DNA of 64,000 nt from assembly GCA_946803715.1 (NCBI GenBank), contig CAMPET010000031.1, positions 62,001 to 126,000 of the forward strand, written 5' to 3'. Below are positions 309 to 23,500 of this stretch, piece after piece (within the stretch, counting starts at the first letter, position 1; each line of letters begins with the position of its first letter). The translations under genes and the position numbers were made by a program. Under the pieces are notes generated by a model. It ran no database searches. It worked only from the letters and a program-made list of their open reading frames with translations, and had not been told where the DNA came from. This stretch comes from Beroe ovata. Its lineage: Eukaryota > Ctenophora > Nuda > Beroida > Beroidae.

Positions 309-1180
309 AGGAATCGAAGATCAGAATAAAACAATTTCAATATTCAATTTCATGGCAGCTATTTGAATAAAAACTTAATTAAATTACACTTACAACATTC
401 AATGTTGCATATTGCTTGGCGTTCATAGACCGCTTATGCAAGCCGTGCGCGCGCAAAACGAAATTTTTAATCAAGTCCCGCACTCCCGCCGCGGGCCGCG
501 GCAGCAAAGAAAAAAACACAATTACAACACACAAAATTAATATATCGATGACATGATCTGAACAATATGATTTGTCAAATTTTATCAGCTCATGACCTCT
601 GTTTCTCGCGCGCGCGCAAAATATCGTGGTCAGATGAAATCTAAAAATTATAATGATAATAGTCAAAAACTCTGGTATTATAATTTCCTCTGCGCGCGCA
701 CTCGCTCTTACTACTTTACAGTTCCGTGACAAATCATGAATCAAATCACGTTGCGTCGTCGCAGGTGCTCAGCTGCAGTATAGTAGTCAAACGCTGTTAT
801 AGCGAGTGCGTCGGCCACAGTGCAAAAATTTCAATTTCAATTTTATGTAAATTATAAATCGGCGAAAATAAATGAAAGTGTAAGTTCACATGCATGTTAA
901 ATAATTTCAAATGCTAATTTCTAGGGACTTTGCATTAAGTTCATAGTTATTATCATTATATTATTGTCTCAGTTTCTGAGTAGAAACGTATTCTATTCTA
1001 TTCTATCTCTCAAGTATACTCATACCTTTTGAGTTTCATTCACTTGGCATCATCATATCATCTCGAAGAAAAGATTTATTTCAATAAGATTCTTTTGAGA
1101 CATCAATTTGCAAGACTTTTCTCCAACTCTGTACTTGAACACCAACATTGAACATCCTGTATGACTTTTTCTCAATACAG

Positions 1181-1234
1181 GATGAAAATGTAACAGGAAA
1201 CAAAGTCAAAGGCAGATATTTTAAAGTGCTTTTG
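1181..1234 (+). CDS. Possible internal exon, PH-like start
   Basis: A 54-base open stretch sits between a pyrimidine-rich acceptor (TTTTTCTCAATACAG) and a consensus donor (GTAAGA). Only one frame is open, giving DENVTGNKVKGRYFKVLL. The GRYFKVLL ending resembles the first strand of many PH domains. It probably belongs to the gene whose later exons lie at 1483-2866, but the connecting exon was not found. Confidence 0.35.
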
Positions 1235-1482
1235 GTAAGAGTAAGCTATTGGCTAGTCATTGAAGAGCAGAGGATCTGGAATTCTTATCTGATCAAGATG
1301 GTCTATTATGGAATCTCACAAATCTGTTAACCAAAAGCTTGAAAGCTTCATGAAGCGCAACCTACCATCATCAGACTATCAAAGGTTTTAATTGATAAGT
1401 TCTTTTATTTTATGACTTGAGCAGTAAAAACTTCCTGGCAAAATTGTTTTTTGATGAACCGTTAAGGGGATGAAATGCTCAG

Positions 1483-2866
1483 GATACGATGTTATGAAAG
1501 ATGTGTAGTAGACAAGTCTATGAGACTTGCTCTTGTTACTTCAAAAAACCTCATCATAACTGATTCACCACCAAGAACTATCCTTTACACCCTTCCCCTT
1601 GTGGATTTCATATCTGTCAATTTGGTATGTTATAATTTGCTCTATACCTAATCTCAGTATTTCTAGGACTTAGGTTTGTTGAATTTGTCATAGACTATAA
1701 CTATTCAGGTGCAAGATCTACCTGATTTCCTTCATGGTGATATACAACTTAAAAGTCAGCATATATCACTTAAATTCCGTCAAGATTCTCTTGTGAAATT
1801 AGAATGTCCTCTTGATGACAGCACTAACTCATTATTGAGTGCATCTTCTGATGGTGAGCTCATATCTTCATATCTTCCTAATCAGCAATGTTCAATGGAC
1901 AAAGCTAAAACAACGGTACTTTATATCTATAAGTGTTAACATGGCATTGAATAAACATAGTATTTTCATAGGAGATAAATCACCAAGAAGCACAAAATCT
2001 ATCAGATCATTAGCTGCCTCTCTGTCCTCATTGAGCTCCCCTTCCTGGCATGAATCCCTTAATGGTAGTCAGAGACGATCCTCAAAACTGAAGAAGAAAT
2101 TTGATCAATCACCTGATAGCACTGAGGCACACAAAAGGTATGAATACGTAAATCTGATTTGATACGTAAATCTGATATGATATTTATTGACTTGACTGGA
2201 TTCTTGATGTAATGGTTTCCACTAAACTGCTGAACTCGGAAATGTTGCAGATTGAATTTGAGTGACAGTGGTAGTTCAGTTTCATCCTGGAGTCAGGACT
2301 CTAACCACGACAGTCCGGTGTTCTCTACCGAGCTTGATCTCTTCCTGCTTACTGACTCAACACTGTTCTTCAAACTGTTACAAGCTGCTTCCCTCAACGA
2401 GAAGATAGTACGCTCATCAAGCTAGTTTTACCTGTGTGAGGTCAGTGGTCATGTCAAATCAATCAATCTGCTCGGGTCTCATTAGTTAAACCATCTCCAG
2501 GCTGAAACAAAGAATCTTACCCTAATGGTGCACGGAGACCCCAAAATACCCAAGGAAAGAAAGAAAAGGTATAACAAGTTGGCATGAGTAAAATCCCTGA
2601 AAATTTCATTTTCATTTCAGATATAATTTGATAGTTCTTTTCCTGGGAACAATTTGTCGAGTTCTCATCAACTATGATGGTGTAGCATATTCAGTACGGT
2701 CCAGTGTCAGCTCTTCACACAGCTCTCGTCCGACATACACGCCACTGATAGATTGGAGCGGCGGTTCGAGCTTGTCCAAGAGTTACAGACTGCAGCTGCG
2801 GGCAATCCTGCTATCAAGAGATATTTTTGGAAGGTTTGGGAGCTTCTGAGTTGTTTGCCTCACTGA
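1483..2866 (+). CDS. Unidentified protein, 3' six exons (282 aa seen)
   Basis: Six exons join in frame: 1483-1624, 1709-1853, 1972-2137, 2251-2407, 2501-2568 and 2695-2866, ending in TGA. The predicted C-terminal 282 residues begin with a beta-rich stretch (LALVTSKNLIITDSPPRTI) that could be part of a PH-like fold. Next comes a Ser-rich linker with basic patches (residues about 85-165), then a conserved-looking segment (TELDLFLLTDSTLFFKLLQ) and a helical C terminus (DRLERRFELVQELQTAAAG, ending FWKVWELLSCLPH). The fourth exon needs the donor GTACGC at 2408; reading through it would hit TAG at 2423. The family was not recognised. The splice model is consistent but the 5' part is missing. Confidence 0.55.
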
Positions 2867-4171
2867 ATCCACATAATGATATTCAATAGGAAAGATAATT
2901 AGATACCCACCACCGATTGCTATGTATTTTCGGACGCTGAATCGATCGAATTACAGCCCTATCTCGCTCCCCCATGGTAAAATCTATGAAGCCTATCGCA
3001 TAGTATGCATACTGACTTTTATTTCAACTTGACAACACTACTTTATACATTATACAATCCATCTTGAGTTTGCCCACGATGAATATCGAAACATACATAC
3101 AAACTAAAGAATCTCATTACTTGTCGACATAATGGCAGCTCCCCCTGGGAACATTATCAGTACATATAACTGATGTACCTATTTGACACATCATTTCACC
3201 AATCACAGAACCTGTCATATGGTGGGAATGTTTGCTACCTCCTTGCGACACATAATATGAAGAGCCATGCCTCCCCTCTCGCTCTCTGTTTTATCCGCGC
3301 ATACATCACCATGGTAACTATAAGTTCGTTGCTGCTGCATAATTGACCATTTACTAAACTTTGTCTACACATCCATATTCCATATGCTCAAAATAGATCA
3401 GGAGTTACATAGGTAAGAGACGGAGAAAAATGAGTTGGAGGTCACATACTCCAATCCGAGTGATATCTTACTCAATAAATGGAGTGTAAATCAGCAAGCT
3501 GATGTGAAACCATATTAAACTTAGTCAATAGTTTAGTCTTTCTATTGTACTATCTTGTTAAAAGTTTACGTAATCGATAGATTGAAAATTGAGTCGTTTG
3601 TTAATGAAACACAAGGAAACATCGTATGCATTATCATATTGCTACACTTTCAGAAAGATACGATTCCACGATGACCATTATTTCACATGATATTCACAAA
3701 AGCTCTCCCTCTCCGGTGGGAATATAGACAATACGATGCGAACACAAACTTTCTTGTACAGCTTTTCGACAAGCACCGTGATGAGCTGATGTAAATCACG
3801 ATTGTTGTTTTTTGGAAATAGATTTGGTCATATGATGCCGCGTAAAAAGTAGTGAAAACACAAAAGAACAAAGCACGTTGAGATAATGGTATTTTGTACA
3901 ATCACGTGCACACTTCACAAAACTATTCATGGAGACATGAACTTGTCACTACTTGCGCTATTTCGACTGTCATAATCCAAGGGAGACAAAATCTTGAGTT
4001 ATACAGTTTCATCACCCTTCCAAAGAGATTTTGCCTGACCTCACCCGTTCCCTCTGTATTTATCATCTCTGTGTAGCGTGTATCACCTGGGTCCCAAATC
4101 ACAGTCTCTCACCCCATCCCCCCCATGTCACCGTGGTCCATGGCCCGTAACCTAACCTCCATGGCCCTCAG
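2867..4171. other. Intergenic or intronic, no gene seen
   Basis: About 1.3 kb of AT-rich sequence. Short open frames here (for example minus 3683-3901) have no splice context or recognisable residues. Confidence 0.5.
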
Positions 4172-14722: not shown

Positions 14723-15426
14723 TCAAAGTATAGTACACACGGAACTGATAGTTCTGAAGAGCTCGCTGTCCTTCGCGGTTCTTATCTTAGAAGGGCGTGA
14801 ATTATTTCCCGGATCGACATCACTCTCATCTCCCACGTCATGATTCACTGCCACCACCCCTTTGAGTGGATTGATCTGGCGTTGGAGGGCTGGGTTGTTC
14901 CCTAGCTGGGTCAAAACATCAGAGGAAATTGCACCTTCGTTTACCTGAGGAGGGTTTGGAGTGATGTAACTGGGTGTGTGCGCCAGTGAATGAGCATAAA
15001 CAATAAAATACTCTCACAAATGGTTGCTTGATAGAAATGTGGTAATTGTCACATGATCCAGTACTTATTCTACACTGATCTCAACTATACCATCGATCTC
15101 AACTATACAGATTTTGTTGTACATGAGAAACGTATCTCGACTATACCTGTTCAAGGACCTGATTGACCTGTTTCTTAGCCTCCTCTTCCATCATTTCTTC
15201 CTTCGTGTAGGATGTGAGGATGTTGTCACCCTGACCGCACAGCCAGTACGTGGGGAGCTGGCCCTTGCCTTTGTGAGTGTGCCACCCACGCTGCCGGGTG
15301 ATGTAATTGCCTGCAGAAAGAAGGGGGAGGCGTAATACGGTAATATTTGACAGTGGAGATCCCTGCTACTGTGTGTGTGTGTGTGTGTGTGTGTNNNNNN
15401 NNNNNNNNNNNNNGTTTTTGTTTGTT

Positions 15427-15477
<51 letters not shown>

Positions 15478-18400
15478 GTGTGTGCGTGCTTTTCGTTCGC
15501 ATCTGAGAAGAAAAGTTCCCATAAACAAGCCCCCTCTCTTACCGTATCGCTTGAGATATTCATTGGTCGAATCGCTGATGTGAACTTTCAGTGCTTCACT
15601 CGATGACTCCATCCTAGAAGCCGTGTTGACAGTGTCACCAAATAGACAATAACGCGGCACTTTCCAACCCACCACACCTGGATTATTGACAATTGGGACT
15701 GAGATGAGACTTTGGAGTAATTCAATCCTCACACAGTGAATCACAGCCCTCACTCAATATAATAGTCTGTGATATTGCGCTAGGCTATAAGGCTTCACCC
15801 CTACCTGCCACAACAGGTCCAGAATGTATGCCGAGTTTGACCGTCAGCGGTTCCTTCAGGAAGTTTATCCTAACTTTCTGTATGGCGTGTATCATGGCTA
15901 TTGCAATGTCAGCAGCGTGCTTGGCGTGATGTTCGGTTCTTTCGGGGAGACCAGACACTAGCATGTACGCGTCTCCGACAGTCTCTACCTAGAGCCGCAC
16001 CATCATGGTTAAGTTATTTTCACGGAGCAAGTTGATACGATAAAACTAACATAGATACTGAGACGAATAGACAACACACCTTGTACACGTTGGTGTGGCT
16101 ATCGGTCAGGGTGTCAAACGCCATGTACATCCTGTTCAGAAGTCCAGCTACCTAAAATGGTGTCAATAAGCAAACGTGTCCTAAAGCCTTAATTAGGGAA
16201 TCAAGCCACCATAAATCGTCGGCTTGACAAAAGCTGTAGCAGACGAGAGAACCACTTCTTGTCTGTGGCTGATGACAGATTGACTCATATACATATCTGA
16301 GCATAATACCTGCATGGGTGATAGCGTGCTACACAGCTCAGTGAATCCCACCAGGTCACTGAACAGAACAGTAGCCTCCCCAAACTCCTCACACGTGTTC
16401 ACAAAGGGAGTTCCTTCTCGGATCTACAGGGGGGGGGGAGAGAGGATTCATTCACCGAGTCACAGCAGATATATATAGAACAATGTTAAATTGTATCATG
16501 TGTGCAGGGGATTGGAACCCAACAACCAGTTTGTTTTGCCCCTCCTCACTGAGTATTCCGCATATCTGAATCTCTAAACACCCCCATTCTTTTTCTCCAA
16601 CCCTTGCGGCCCCTCGGCCACAAGTGAGGATTTTGACCGAATAGATGAGGGTCGGAATAGCACAAACCTGCAGTGCAACATCCCTGGGCATAATCTGTTC
16701 AATGAGTCCCTCTGTGATGCGCATCTCAGTGCTCAGCACGGAGAGATACTGGTTCTGTACGATGCTCTGTTCCCGCTCCTCATCCAGCAGACGACGCACC
16801 ATGTGGACTCTGAGGGAAGAATACCCATACATTATACATTATACAGTATACACTGTACCATGTATATACATGTGCACACGTTGCGCGCGCCCCTTATTTT
16901 ACTCTGTGATCTGAAAGGTCTTAAATTACAGAGCACGCCGCAGCGCGGGAACATGTATACACTACCAAATGTAGATTATTCCAATCATTGCACAATTATA
17001 TGTATTCAACGTACTACCTGAATTGACATTCCAGTAGGAACGTAGTATAGAATGATTTCAAACTGAAACGTATATGAACTAAATCCACGTGGCTAATATG
17101 CTCATATTCAGCTTCACCTCAGTGATGAAGATAGTAGCTGCGCTTTGGTACTGTCATGCGCCTCAAAGTCGCCCAGGAACACAGTTTTACACGCCTGCAT
17201 CGACTCTAGACGGGGAGAACACAGGAAGATGACGTCACCCGTCTCTTCAAACACCACCATCTGACCCTGTGACATGTTACTATGACATGTTACTATGACT
17301 TGTTACTATGTGACATGTTACTATGTGACATGTTACTATGTGACATGTTACTATGTGACATGTTACCATGTGACATGTTACTATGACATAACTCTGATAA
17401 TGGGTGAGTGGTGACACGCCACCATGATTCGACCTGACGTCACCACGACGTCATTGCGATCTTGTGTGACGTCACCAGCAGTACCTGTAATCGCAGGTGA
17501 AGGTCCACTACAGTTTCTTCATTCCTCAGTAGTTGTACACCCCCCTCACTCGCCTTACTACACAGCTCAAATACCTGGAAACGTCACATGGTCAGTGAGG
17601 ACCTCAATCTCATACACTAGCTCAGGGTAGAAGGCATTTCCTTCGAATCTTATTGTCGCGTTTAGAGTCTGATTTGCAGACAGTTGAACCGGAATATGAA
17701 TCCGGATCTTCCAGTCGATTTACCTGATGCTGATTACTCCGAATGTAGTTCCAAGTTAGGGTTCCTAGCCGCGGTTTCCGCAGGTTAAAGTTCTTGTTTA
17801 TCTTGGTCCTCACCAAATTGGGAATGATTTGCTCGAGGGTATGACCAACAGAATGGATCTCATTGAATCTGGTAAGAAATGACAGTGTGAGCATAACAAA
17901 ACTTATACGGGAGCAAAAATTGAGGATAGAGACGGAAGAAGAGGACACTTCAGATTTTCTTTAGAGAGTGGACGGAACAAGGCGTTGTAACCTATCGAAA
18001 TAGATGAAGAACGGGAACAGACTTAGGACAGTCATGGCAGAGGTTGGAATCACACTGTCCAGGTTAGTGTCGATAGCATCCCCCACCTCGAGAGGTTCAA
18101 ACCAGCGTGAATTGTCGAACTGGAGCCGGAAATTGGTGTGGAAAATGAATCCGTCGATTTGCTGCGGTTCCTGTACGATCTGGAGACTCTCTTCAGGCAC
18201 GGAGAAGAGGATTTTCAGCGTGTTCTTGATTATTCCTGTGGTTAATAATAATGAGTTAGTGATTGGAAAAGATAATCGAAAGAAAAATTCTTGCGAAGAT
18301 GAGTGAGATCACGCTAAATAGAATGATTTGATCAGCACTTCATATTATCAGTGTAGTACTGGTACAACCGATTTCTGATGGTGAGATGTGTAAAACGCCG

Positions 18401-19131
18401 CGCAGGGCGGTGACTGGAGATTTATGCACGACAGCCACTCACCCAGCCCGAAGTAAGCCATGTTGGGTGCCCAGCATCTCATCGCTACATCAAATCCTTG
18501 ATTATCCTCGTGACTCACAATAAACGAATCGTACATCAACCCAGCATACTCATACGCTTTGTAATCGTAGAAATCACTCCACGTTCGGAAAAAGTCAGCT
18601 GGCGTTCGGCCAAGAAGCTGAAAATAACCGAATGTAAACCGGAAGAACAAAGAAAAGAATGAATGACGGGAAGTTATATCGAGCAAATTGCAAGACTTTG
18701 CTCCTCTCACCTTCATATTCCATTCTTTGATCATGAGTTTGATATACCACTCCCCAAATCTCTCAACCACCCTGTTCACGTCCAGTTTCGCATGCTTGCT
18801 CACGCCTGTATGATTTGAGCATTGGTGAAAACTGTTTCAGTGATCGATGTGTTATACTTGTAGTAATCGATGTTGGCAGAAAAACATCTTTGAAGGATTT
18901 CATCTCTCTATGACCAAATTATAACCGTTGAATCCTGTGTCAACTGATGATTGAAAAAGAGTTGAATAGTCAATTACCGACTGCGAGTTCGAGGAAGAGT
19001 TGGTCCTCATAGTCGATGTAGTCGTCATAATCCTCAGGGACGTTAGCAGAGGTACATATGATATACCAGGACCGCTTCTCAAAATCGCTGTAGAACCCAA
19101 GTTTGATAGCGTTGAACACGTATCCATACAT
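14723..19131 (-). CDS. Soluble guanylyl cyclase, atypical, 690 aa
   Basis: Fourteen exons join in frame: 18978-19131, 18711-18805, 18443-18617, 17992-18235, 17724-17868, 17485-17574, 17118-17266, 16668-16809, 16310-16423, 16080-16151, 15805-15988, 15543-15677, 15159-15310 and 14723-14944. Order: H-NOX (1 to about 190, starting MYGYV), HNOBA/PAS (about 220-340, containing [18 protein letters not shown]), coiled-coil (about 350-398) and cyclase domain (about 405-600). Catalytic residues all sit in one chain: metal Asp421 (FSDLVGF) and Asp466 (VETVGDAY), guanine-selecting Glu462 and Cys532 (RYCLFGD), Asn539 and Arg543 (TVNTASR). The enzyme should make cGMP in the cytosol as a homodimer. The haem His is replaced by Tyr100 (SDFYDYK) and the YxSxR motif is absent, so NO sensing is unlikely. 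The C terminus CTIL is a class I PDZ ligand. Receptor-cyclase-like [10 protein letters not shown] closes the domain. Confidence 0.93.
15371..15481. repeat. (TG)n microsatellite with 19-N gap
   Basis: TG repeats run on both sides of 19 N (15395-15413), inside the intron between the last two cyclase-domain exons of the guanylyl cyclase gene. The tract length is therefore not reliable. Confidence 0.95.
17266..17395. repeat. Minisatellite abutting a splice acceptor
   Basis: About seven copies of a 15-17 base unit (TGACATGTTACTATG, often plus TG) fill 17268-17395. On the minus strand the array ends in CATGTCACAG, which is the acceptor of cyclase exon 17118-17266, so the repeat unit itself supplies the sequence just upstream of the splice site. 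Confidence 0.9.
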
Positions 19132-20528: not shown

Positions 20529-23500
20529 CTAGATGCGTAGGACACACGCTCCTTGGCACGGAGAAGAAACGAAGAGGTGAGTTTTGGTAGCTTCCGACAG
20601 GGATACGCCCCTCGCTTCATAGTACTCCTTCCACACAGTGTTTATGAAGGAGTCGACCTGGGGGAGCAAAGGCTATGAGGGGTGAGGATGGGGTTATCAA
20701 AACAGGGTTCTCAGGGCCAATTGAAAAGTTAGGAGTAAGTCTATATGATACATATTTTACAGAGCTCGACATAGTTCTGCTTCTCATACCACAACAAAAG
20801 TGGAGTTTAGTAAACTCACGATGGAAACAGGGACCATGGACATAGTACATCCTCCAAACCCAGCTCCAACAAGCCGTGATCCGAGGGCCCCAGCGTCCCT
20901 ACACATCTGATGACAGGAGGAATAGTGAACATAAGTCAAGAGTGGGAAATCGATGTCCGGAAAGGGGGCAGAATGTGAAAAACGTGCAGGTTAGCTCAAG
21001 AATTTCGGTCACTTTCATGATAATAATAAAATAATGAAACTGACCTGTGTAAGCTGATCAAGTTCATCGATACTGACGTTGTACTTGTCCTTCAGACTCA
21101 TGTGTGATTCGTTTATCAACCTACCCAGCTCCTGGGGTCAAGTGGTTTGATAAACCTCATGTTAGGCGAGGTCGACTCAGCCATTTGTCATGTGTTGAGT
21201 GGTTGAATCAATTATGTCTAAAAATTGATCGCGTTCATATTGTTGAATCAACAAGAAGATTTTGTAGAGGGAAACTTTATCCTTCACCTGCACATCAGGA
21301 TCTGCCTTGTCACAGAGCTCCTTGAATCTTGCAACTCGGGTTGCTTCTCCGGTCACGTGAAGTGCTCTGAAAAAGTGGTGTCAGTCACCAGGAAAAGTGG
21401 TCTCAAAGGAAAGTGGTGTCAGTCATTAAGGAGAAGTGGTGTCAAGGGAGAGTGATGTCAGTCATTGGGGAGAAGTGGTGTCAAGGGAGATTGATGTCAG
21501 TCATTGGGGAGAAGTGGTGTCAAGGGAGAGTGATGTCAGCCATTGGGGAAAAGTGGTGTCAAGGAAGAGTGGTGTCAAGCAGTTATTAATGCCTCAGAAA
21601 ATGGTGTCAACGATGTCTCGAAGCGGTGTCAGCATGTCAAATGGCGTCAAGGATAAAATAAAGTGTCGACGGAATAAAGTGGACTTACCTATCATAGAGA
21701 CGATAAAGTTGGTTATCACTCTTGCCGATAATTTCAGCGAACTCTTCCGTAGAACATTCCAATATTTCCTGAGCATCAGAGCTAGTTGAGACATGAACTC
21801 GTGCCAAATGTAGGCAACGACGATCAAGAATTAATGGATTTTATTAAAATCACCATAATCTCATCCTGTGTGTATGGTTCCTGGTGAATGTGCTCCTTCA
21901 CTGCACTCAGCAGAGAAACTGGTTCCATCCCGTTCACTGTCATGAGGTTATGATAGGTCTTGATATCACGCCAAGCCACACCCAGTTTCACAGCTAAAAC
22001 CTACGGCAATCCGACTCGAATGAGCCAGTTGCATCAATAAACTGAGCTAATATCGCGAACATCAAAGTAGAGTAGTATCATTCGCATTCAGAGCGTAATC
22101 TTCACTCACCCTCGCCCCTATCTTACACTCAGCAACCCTGTTATTAAAATCAGTTCCGTCCGCTTTCCACTTGTTCACCATACAGTTCGCAACAACAAAC
22201 GTCGCGGAAACAGGCAGCACAACTGGTTCACAACGTACAGGATTGAAGTTGATGAGCTGTGCTTTACCAGCCACGCCCAGGAATGATATCGCCTGAGATT
22301 CAATTATATATACGTGGTTATAGCAAGGCCCATTCCAACTAACCGAATGTGAAATTATTTCAGAGAGGGAGGGAACGCCGTAGTTTGGAATGATCGGTAA
22401 GGGGGAGTTTGTACCTGGTCCATACCTCCTCCCAGAGTACCGACATATCTCTCGGAACGAGCGCATAACTCCGCAATACTCTCACGAGTCAACGTCCTGT
22501 CCTGTGAAAATATAAGATGTGGTGCATTCTCGCACGCTACACAAAGAATCGCATGTTTTCAGTGTCAGGAATGGCGTGACGCTCAATCAGATTTACTCAC
22601 GTTAAGGAATAGAGCAGCCATGAGGGCCGAGGCACAGACCAGAGCTGAGGAGCTGGATAGACCCGCTGACATTGGCACCTTGCCATCAACCATGACTTGC
22701 AGCCCTGGGGAACGAGGATGGATAGTGTTTAAAACACTGTGTTTTCACTCGGGTCGGGGGAGAAATGAGGATCCACGCCATTAACAGAACTAACATATTA
22801 TTCCCACCCACTTATATAACATCCAGTGAAATCAGTAGTGTGGTAATCTACTGACCGGGGGCCAGAGTGTTCATTCTCTCTGCTATACCAAGATACCCAG
22901 CCAACACGTACGAATACCACTTTATCTCGTTAAACTGAGGATGACAATTGCTAACTAAGAATTTTTTTAGAATTTTGTATTTCGGGTGCCTTATATCATC
23001 TTCCTCATTGTAACAGAAGGTCGGGGAGTAGGACGCATGCCAGTATCATGACGTCGTCACATGACCCAGTGAATATTTCAGACACAAAGATAGCTGTTTG
23101 ACACCTGACACTTGGAGCATTCTCCAGGATGGAAATACCAGCTCAACTCTTTCCGAGCACCATTTTCATCATGGCCATATAAGGTCAAATTACCCTGCCT
23201 TTTTCCATCCCAAGACCCATTACCTAATGGACAGTTTACAACTTTGACGAGATGCACTTTTAGCAAGATACCTGAATATTCCTGATGGGACAGGAGAAGT
23301 CGGGAAACTTGGGGTCGGAGTTGGTGATGGTTATGTCCCGTTTCTCGCTGTCCTTCCTCCCAGCTATCATAACATCCTGAGGCGGGGGGAGGCAGTGGAG
23401 ATGAGGGAATGTCAGAAAGTTAAACTTAATATAAAACGAACGAGGGCAACTGTATCATCTTGTCTACATCTCGTCCTATGTATTACCTGCTTGATGGAAA

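Follow-up and report, generated by a model that had tools for sequence, protein, structure and literature searches.

We consider it likely, from the residues that the sequence retains and lacks, that the H-NOX cyclase gene in the 64-kb window (the whole stretch of DNA analyzed here) encodes a haem-free, self-sufficient and probably membrane-tethered guanylyl cyclase. The usual detection of NO has probably been lost in this protein, since the fold is kept but the residues that hold the haem are gone. The initial annotation of this DNA had inferred that ordinary haem binding is missing from the subunit, and our comparison agrees with it: none of the nine ctenophore sequences that we aligned has the proximal His, Pro118 or the propionate Arg, and comparable published mutants are haem-free.

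Gene model and ctenophore relatives

The coding model runs through 14 exons on the minus strand (19131..14723) with GT-AG boundaries at 13 of 13 introns, and its product has 694 residues; of the 690-residue model proposed initially, the gene model stood and the length did not. Pfam recognized three domains in a 638-residue version of the protein, all above their curated cut-offs and in sGC order, namely HNOB (residues 2-150; 45.9 bits, with a cut-off of 25.5 bits), HNOBA (207-398; 96.5 bits) and Guanylate_cyc (410-591; 201.4 bits), and in the splice model the chain ends in CTIL. Because the HNOB score lies above its cut-off, the fold assignment is not due to chance. Exon 1 (18978..19131) starts with MYGYVF as in beta1, with no alpha-type N-terminal extension, and exon 2 (18711..18805) continues the H-NOX domain. 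Exon 3, which had been placed at 18443..18617, lies at exactly these minus-strand coordinates, preceded by an AG acceptor and followed by a GTGAGT donor; it covers the H-NOX domain from helix F to the strands, while exon 4 (17992..18235) holds the end of H-NOX and the start of HNOBA. Repeats were also seen in this region: a 15-base repeat (TGTGACATGTTACTA) in eight copies in the intron before exon 7 (17268-17385), a TG microsatellite interrupted by a 19-N gap in intron 12 (15395-15413), and, upstream of the gene, a tandem repeat with a 39-base unit in 4.8 copies (21391-21577).

Relatives were sought in a set of 5.77 billion proteins, of which 3,478 were taken as candidates. With residues 1-380 of the window protein as the query, two were found at E up to 0.001, the better being a Mnemiopsis leidyi protein (P0001, ACHWQZ_G004430) with 73% identity over residues 1-380 and the second an ENA protein with 56%; queries with two paralogues added four further relatives, including a second Mnemiopsis sGC (P0005, ACHWQZ_G013311). 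Searching the genome itself (77.8 Mb, 534 contigs) gave three H-NOX genes: the window gene, one on contig C81, and one on contig C31, about 0.3 Mb away. These three genes and the six homologues make up the nine sequences compared below, which we sorted into group I (the window protein, P0001 and P0002), group II (the C81 protein, P0003, P0004 and P0005) and group III (L047 from the genome, and P0006). The C81 gene (C81:50400-55000, 956-3034) is one unbroken frame of 693 residues, intronless where the window gene has 14 exons, and is possibly a retroposed copy or the product of wholesale intron loss.

Using PF07700, human beta1, the window protein and P0006 as queries, we detected no gene for a haem-binding partner subunit in the genome. 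Our count of three H-NOX genes depends chiefly on two queries, the window protein and P0006, each of which recovered all three, and the sensitivity of the search was limited: the PF07700 profile missed all exons of the window gene, and the human beta1 H-NOX query recovered a single known gene out of three, that on C81 (25% identity). There may thus be a fourth H-NOX gene, strongly split or absent from the assembly; a true beta1 gene should nevertheless give a stronger match to the human query than the C81 gene does. C99, C42 and C245 gave weak matches to HNOBA, but these were rejected as H-NOX genes, as their frames look by eye like receptor cyclases. Two receptor-type guanylyl cyclase genes that closely resemble each other stand in tandem on C99 (C99:130000-139500), about 4.56 kb apart, and C87 carries a further cyclase, perhaps of a NIT-like class.

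Residues of the haem site

In whole-chain phmmer alignments, Tyr100 of the window protein (codon at 18567..18569) lies opposite His105 of both human and Manduca sGC beta1. The same pairing, which the initial annotation had read from an ungapped match, was obtained when a seven-sequence profile was aligned with the human, Manduca and Nostoc H-NOX domains, and again in the multiple alignment; aligning the protein with human and Manduca sGC beta1 and with human alpha1, part of a check that had been proposed with it, revealed no His at the haem position. Further changes accompany this one in exon 3. Asp113 (18528..18530) stands where the haem-contact Pro118 is conserved, and residues 129-133 (MRCWA; 18468..18482) occupy the position of the YxSxR motif (human beta1 residues 135/137/139). 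The earlier reading that RCWAP replaces this motif was right about the loss and one residue off in register, the ungapped counterpart being MxCxA. The window protein is therefore changed at 105, 118, 135, 137 and 139 together.

The loss extends to the relatives. His105, Pro118 and Arg139 were each kept in none of the nine ctenophore H-NOX sequences, so that the genes on C81 and C31 also lack the His, and position 105 is occupied by Tyr, Phe and Asn in group I, by Leu, Leu, Leu and Phe in group II, and by Leu and Met in group III, with Phe in both Mnemiopsis proteins. Other parts of the site are kept in places: Tyr135 in three of nine sequences, Ser at position 137 in one (with Thr in four), and the haem contact at position 5, which is Val in the window protein, in six of eight. 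Two replacements are common to all nine sequences, Leu101 to Trp (Trp96 of the window protein; 18579..18581) and Ile145, in the distal pocket, to Phe (Phe139; 18450..18452).

We then counted the columns that are shared with haem-binding H-NOX domains, leaving aside P0004, the N-terminus of which is missing. Among the 49 columns identical in the human, Manduca and Nostoc domains, 10 are identical in eight of eight ctenophore sequences (M1, G3, A8, W22, I25, Y43, L51, G71, F97 and G148), and His105, Pro118, Arg139, Leu101 and Asp102 are kept in none of the eight. New invariant aromatic residues, Trp or Phe, stand at human positions 6, 73, 82, 98, 101 and 145. In the H-NOX domain the aligned sequences share no invariant His or Cys, and the only invariant Tyr is at the position of human Tyr43, which is also Tyr in haem-binding H-NOX domains. 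At the level of these alignments, the fold signature is largely retained, but neither the ligand nor the propionate Arg survives.

Between the window protein and P0001, identity is 77% in the H-NOX domain, 77% in HNOBA and the coiled coil, and 88% in the cyclase, from which the H-NOX domain is apparently under constraint, with no evident decay. AlphaFold was run on P0001 (six sequences), giving a mean pLDDT of 65.3 with blocks of 54-90 in the first 160 residues, the lowest block being residues 101-110 (pLDDT 54). In this model residue 100 falls within a helix spanning 89-103, where helix F would be expected; P0003 was predicted with a helix at 89-104 (mean pLDDT 57.2). The top Foldseek match was to human sGC beta and spanned 621 columns, with a TM-score of 0.26 and an rmsd of 27.7 A, values that reflect a different domain arrangement over a multidomain chain. 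In a VIA-align comparison the matches came mostly from the cyclase domain, and the list tells little about H-NOX.

Catalytic site, phylogeny and alternative readings

Both the window protein and P0001 carry, in a single chain, Asp421 (in FSDLVGF of exon 9; 16310..16423), Glu462 and Asp466 (in VETVGDAY of exon 11; 15805..15988), and Cys532, Asn539 and Arg543 (in exon 12; 15543..15677), and NTASR is present in the cyclase of the window protein. Asp421 and Asp466 are the metal-binding residues and Glu462 and Cys532 the guanine-reading ones, and the chain thus holds the full set that GTP cyclisation usually requires, as in homodimeric receptor cyclases; such a set in one chain defines the atypical homodimeric sGC class. 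In group II, Cys is replaced by Ser or Gly and Arg by Ala or Val in four of four sequences; in group III, Cys, Asn and Arg are all missing from P0006, and Cys is also missing from the gene of the genome. Among the sequences seen, the complete site thus occurs only in group I (P0002 ends upstream of the Cys/Asn/Arg motif), and since group I alone is complete, its members could act as homodimers or as the active half of a pair with group II or III. We hypothesize that group I pairs with group II or III much as beta1 pairs with alpha1.

The last exon (exon 14; 14723..14944) encodes a tail ending in SSVCTIL-stop, which is of CaaX type. Such an end was found in six of the seven chains with a complete end, leaving out the truncated P0002 and the third genome gene: CTIL in the window protein and P0001, CKVQ in the C81 protein and P0003, CRVQ in P0004 and CSIC in P0005, with P0006 lacking one. 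A C-terminal extension with an isoprenylation site is described for sGC beta2 in the part of PMC8200204 available to us. From the sequence we infer prenylation, membrane tethering and homodimers for the window protein.

The alternative that bears most directly on the phylogeny is that the window protein is an sGC alpha-type subunit, a known pseudo-H-NOX in which a missing His would be ordinary. In our alignment, the residue of human alpha1 opposite His105 is indeed Leu, and Foldseek also matched sGC alpha chains, lower in its list. However, the window protein has the MYG start of beta1, with Met1 aligned on Met1 and no N-terminal extension, it matches beta1 over residues 1-590 (235 bits) and human alpha1 only over 202-571 (158.5 bits), and its cyclase site is complete, whereas alpha1 lacks the Asn and Arg. 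In a free tree of human alpha1, two beta1 sequences, the ANPR1 cyclase and all ctenophore proteins except L047, the eight ctenophore proteins fell on one side of a branch (100/99), away from alpha1 and beta1, which were joined (95/93); alpha1 and P0006 form long branches. An H-NOX tree that included L047 and omitted P0004 gave the same ctenophore group (100/100). In the AU test, the grouping of alpha1 with the ctenophore proteins survived (p 0.068), but that of beta1 with them survived equally (p 0.073), neither being rejected at 0.05. Taken together, we judged alpha-subunit identity to be quite unlikely. A single loss before the ctenophore paralogues diverged is the simplest reading of these trees, which contain few outgroups. 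That the His sits instead in an alternative exon 3 hidden by an error of gene model or assembly seems scarcely credible: the model was built by hand, but P0001 is colinear with the window protein through this segment, introns 2 and 3 (93 and 207 bases) leave scant room for a second 175-base exon and led us to reject one, and the His is missing at two more loci of the genome. The Mnemiopsis orthologue lacks it as well, so an error of assembly does not account for its absence.

Two other readings concern what the pocket holds. Tyr ligates haem iron in some other folds, and the initial annotation had raised as a side idea that Tyr100 might do so here, as in catalases; this, or ligation by another residue, would leave haem bound. 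The retention of Val5 in six of eight sequences would suit such a reading, as would the reported porphyrin refilling of H105F mammalian sGC (PMC3157391, seen in part). Against it, Tyr is replaced by Phe in the closest orthologue and by Asn, Leu, Phe or Met in other relatives, variation that counts against Tyr ligation; the difference between Tyr and Phe in a domain under constraint makes an iron-ligating Tyr less likely and a role independent of haem more likely. There is moreover no invariant His or Cys that could substitute among the aligned sequences and no new invariant Tyr, the one at Tyr43 being common to haem-binding domains, and the propionate Arg and the Pro are gone as well, which makes us regard haem binding through another ligand as very improbable. 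Re-use of the pocket for another hydrophobic ligand or a metabolite would be compatible with a haem-free cyclase and is a more specific form of it; the 77% domain identity between two ctenophores and the newly invariant Trp and Phe residues speak for it, but the aromatics at 101 and 145 could fill the cavity instead, and we consider it a minor possibility.

Published mutants indicate what a haem-free enzyme might do. Mouse sGC beta1 H105F is described in excerpts of PMC4699393 as haem-free and NO-unresponsive, with raised basal activity, and in those of PMC3157391 sGC Y135A/R139A is haem-free and impossible to refill with porphyrin, while refilling of H105F sGC is possible; because H105F sGC takes up porphyrin again, loss of the His alone is no bar to haem. 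Residue rules alone are also imperfect, as moth alpha has the His without haem, by implication of the part of PMC8196705 at hand, where the H-NOX domain of sGC alpha is haem-free and its N-terminal extension fills or blocks the pocket. By analogy with these mutants, the haem-free cyclase of the window is expected to behave as a permanent apo-sGC. It would fold as sGC beta1 does, pair with itself or with catalytically incomplete paralogues, be prenylated and tethered to the membrane, and make cGMP without haem-based control by NO or O2. Such a natural apo-sGC could be de-repressed, or could be controlled through contacts that the H-NOX domain makes with the PAS part and the coiled coil; other possible controls are phosphorylation, a further ligand or the choice of partner.

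NO signalling in ctenophores and comparison with known systems

A 2023 survey called ctenophore sGCs canonical haem NO-binding proteins, counted four in Mnemiopsis and two in Pleurobrachia, and inferred canonical NO-cGMP signalling in the animal ancestor (PMC10073611, in the portion available); its main text, as far as that portion extends, was found to contain no mention of histidine. The residues of two of the four published Mnemiopsis sGCs contradict the canonical haem claim. According to the available part of PMC10272528, NO donors at 20-200 micromolar inhibited the comb cilia of Pleurobrachia and Bolinopsis; the effect was reversible, set in within 1-2 minutes and was also seen in high Mg. 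The part of PMC10073611 just cited reports suppression of Bolinopsis swimming over tens of minutes at 2-20 micromolar and no effect noticed in Mnemiopsis below 1 micromolar. Since NO donors stop ctenophore cilia, some NO target exists; the micromolar doses fit the absence of a high-affinity haem receptor without proving it.

Queries with PF02898 and with NOS proteins gave no match to a nitric oxide synthase in the genome at E up to 10. This suggests that NOS has been lost, and it does no more than suggest it because the positive controls for the family search (two of 14 control genomes) were prokaryotic and none was intron-rich. Loss of NOS is reportedly known from Pleurobrachia and Beroe. For ctenophores in general, we hold it to be evenly balanced whether they have no haem-binding sGC at all, the stem lineage having erased the haem site and made membrane-tethered cGMP enzymes with other input, with NO acting via another receptor.

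Among the titles and abstract openings returned by our searches of the open-licence literature, we found no report of haem-ligand loss in ctenophore sGCs. As far as these searches reach, what is new is the loss across nine sequences, together with the lack of a detected haem-binding partner gene and the complete cyclase with a CaaX-type tail; a haem-free H-NOX domain as such is already known from sGC alpha. If the loss is true of the whole phylum, the NO-haem-cGMP pathway could not be traced to the animal ancestor through ctenophores. Pfam still labels the domain HNOB although the haem-defining residues are gone, and the assumed NO receptor becomes a testable question about which input the ctenophore cyclases sense. 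Apo-sGC is of medical interest, and these cyclases could provide a natural model of that state.

Compared with known systems, the window protein shares with metazoan sGC beta1 (GUCY1B1, Manduca beta1) the order of H-NOX, HNOBA, coiled coil and cyclase, the MYG start and an alignment over the whole chain; it differs in lacking His105, Pro118 and YxSxR, in having the cyclase complete in one chain, and in its CaaX-type tail. With sGC alpha1 (GUCY1A1) it has in common a replaced haem ligand (Leu in human alpha1) and an H-NOX domain without haem, as described for alpha in the excerpted PMC8196705, but it lacks the occluding N-terminal extension, it retains the cyclase Asn and Arg, and no haem-binding partner subunit was found in the ctenophore genome that was searched. 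The atypical homodimeric sGCs (Manduca MsGC-beta3, Drosophila Gyc-88E, and C. elegans GCY-31 to -37) are NO-insensitive or weakly NO-binding according to the part of PMC1435932 available, with Manduca beta3 and Gyc-88E reported active as homodimers, and the window protein has the complete catalytic set in one chain of the MsGC-beta3/Gyc-88E class; unlike the window protein, they are reported there with the haem His, and several bind O2. The isoprenylation-type C-terminal tail recalls sGC beta2 (PMC8200204, in part), which is nevertheless described as NO-binding in the same portion of PMC1435932. In the engineered apo-sGCs (mouse beta1 H105F; Y135A/R139A) the site of the change is one that is altered here too, and both Mnemiopsis proteins carry the very residue of the H105F mutant; those are laboratory mutants of a haem enzyme, whereas here the change is natural and common to nine sequences.
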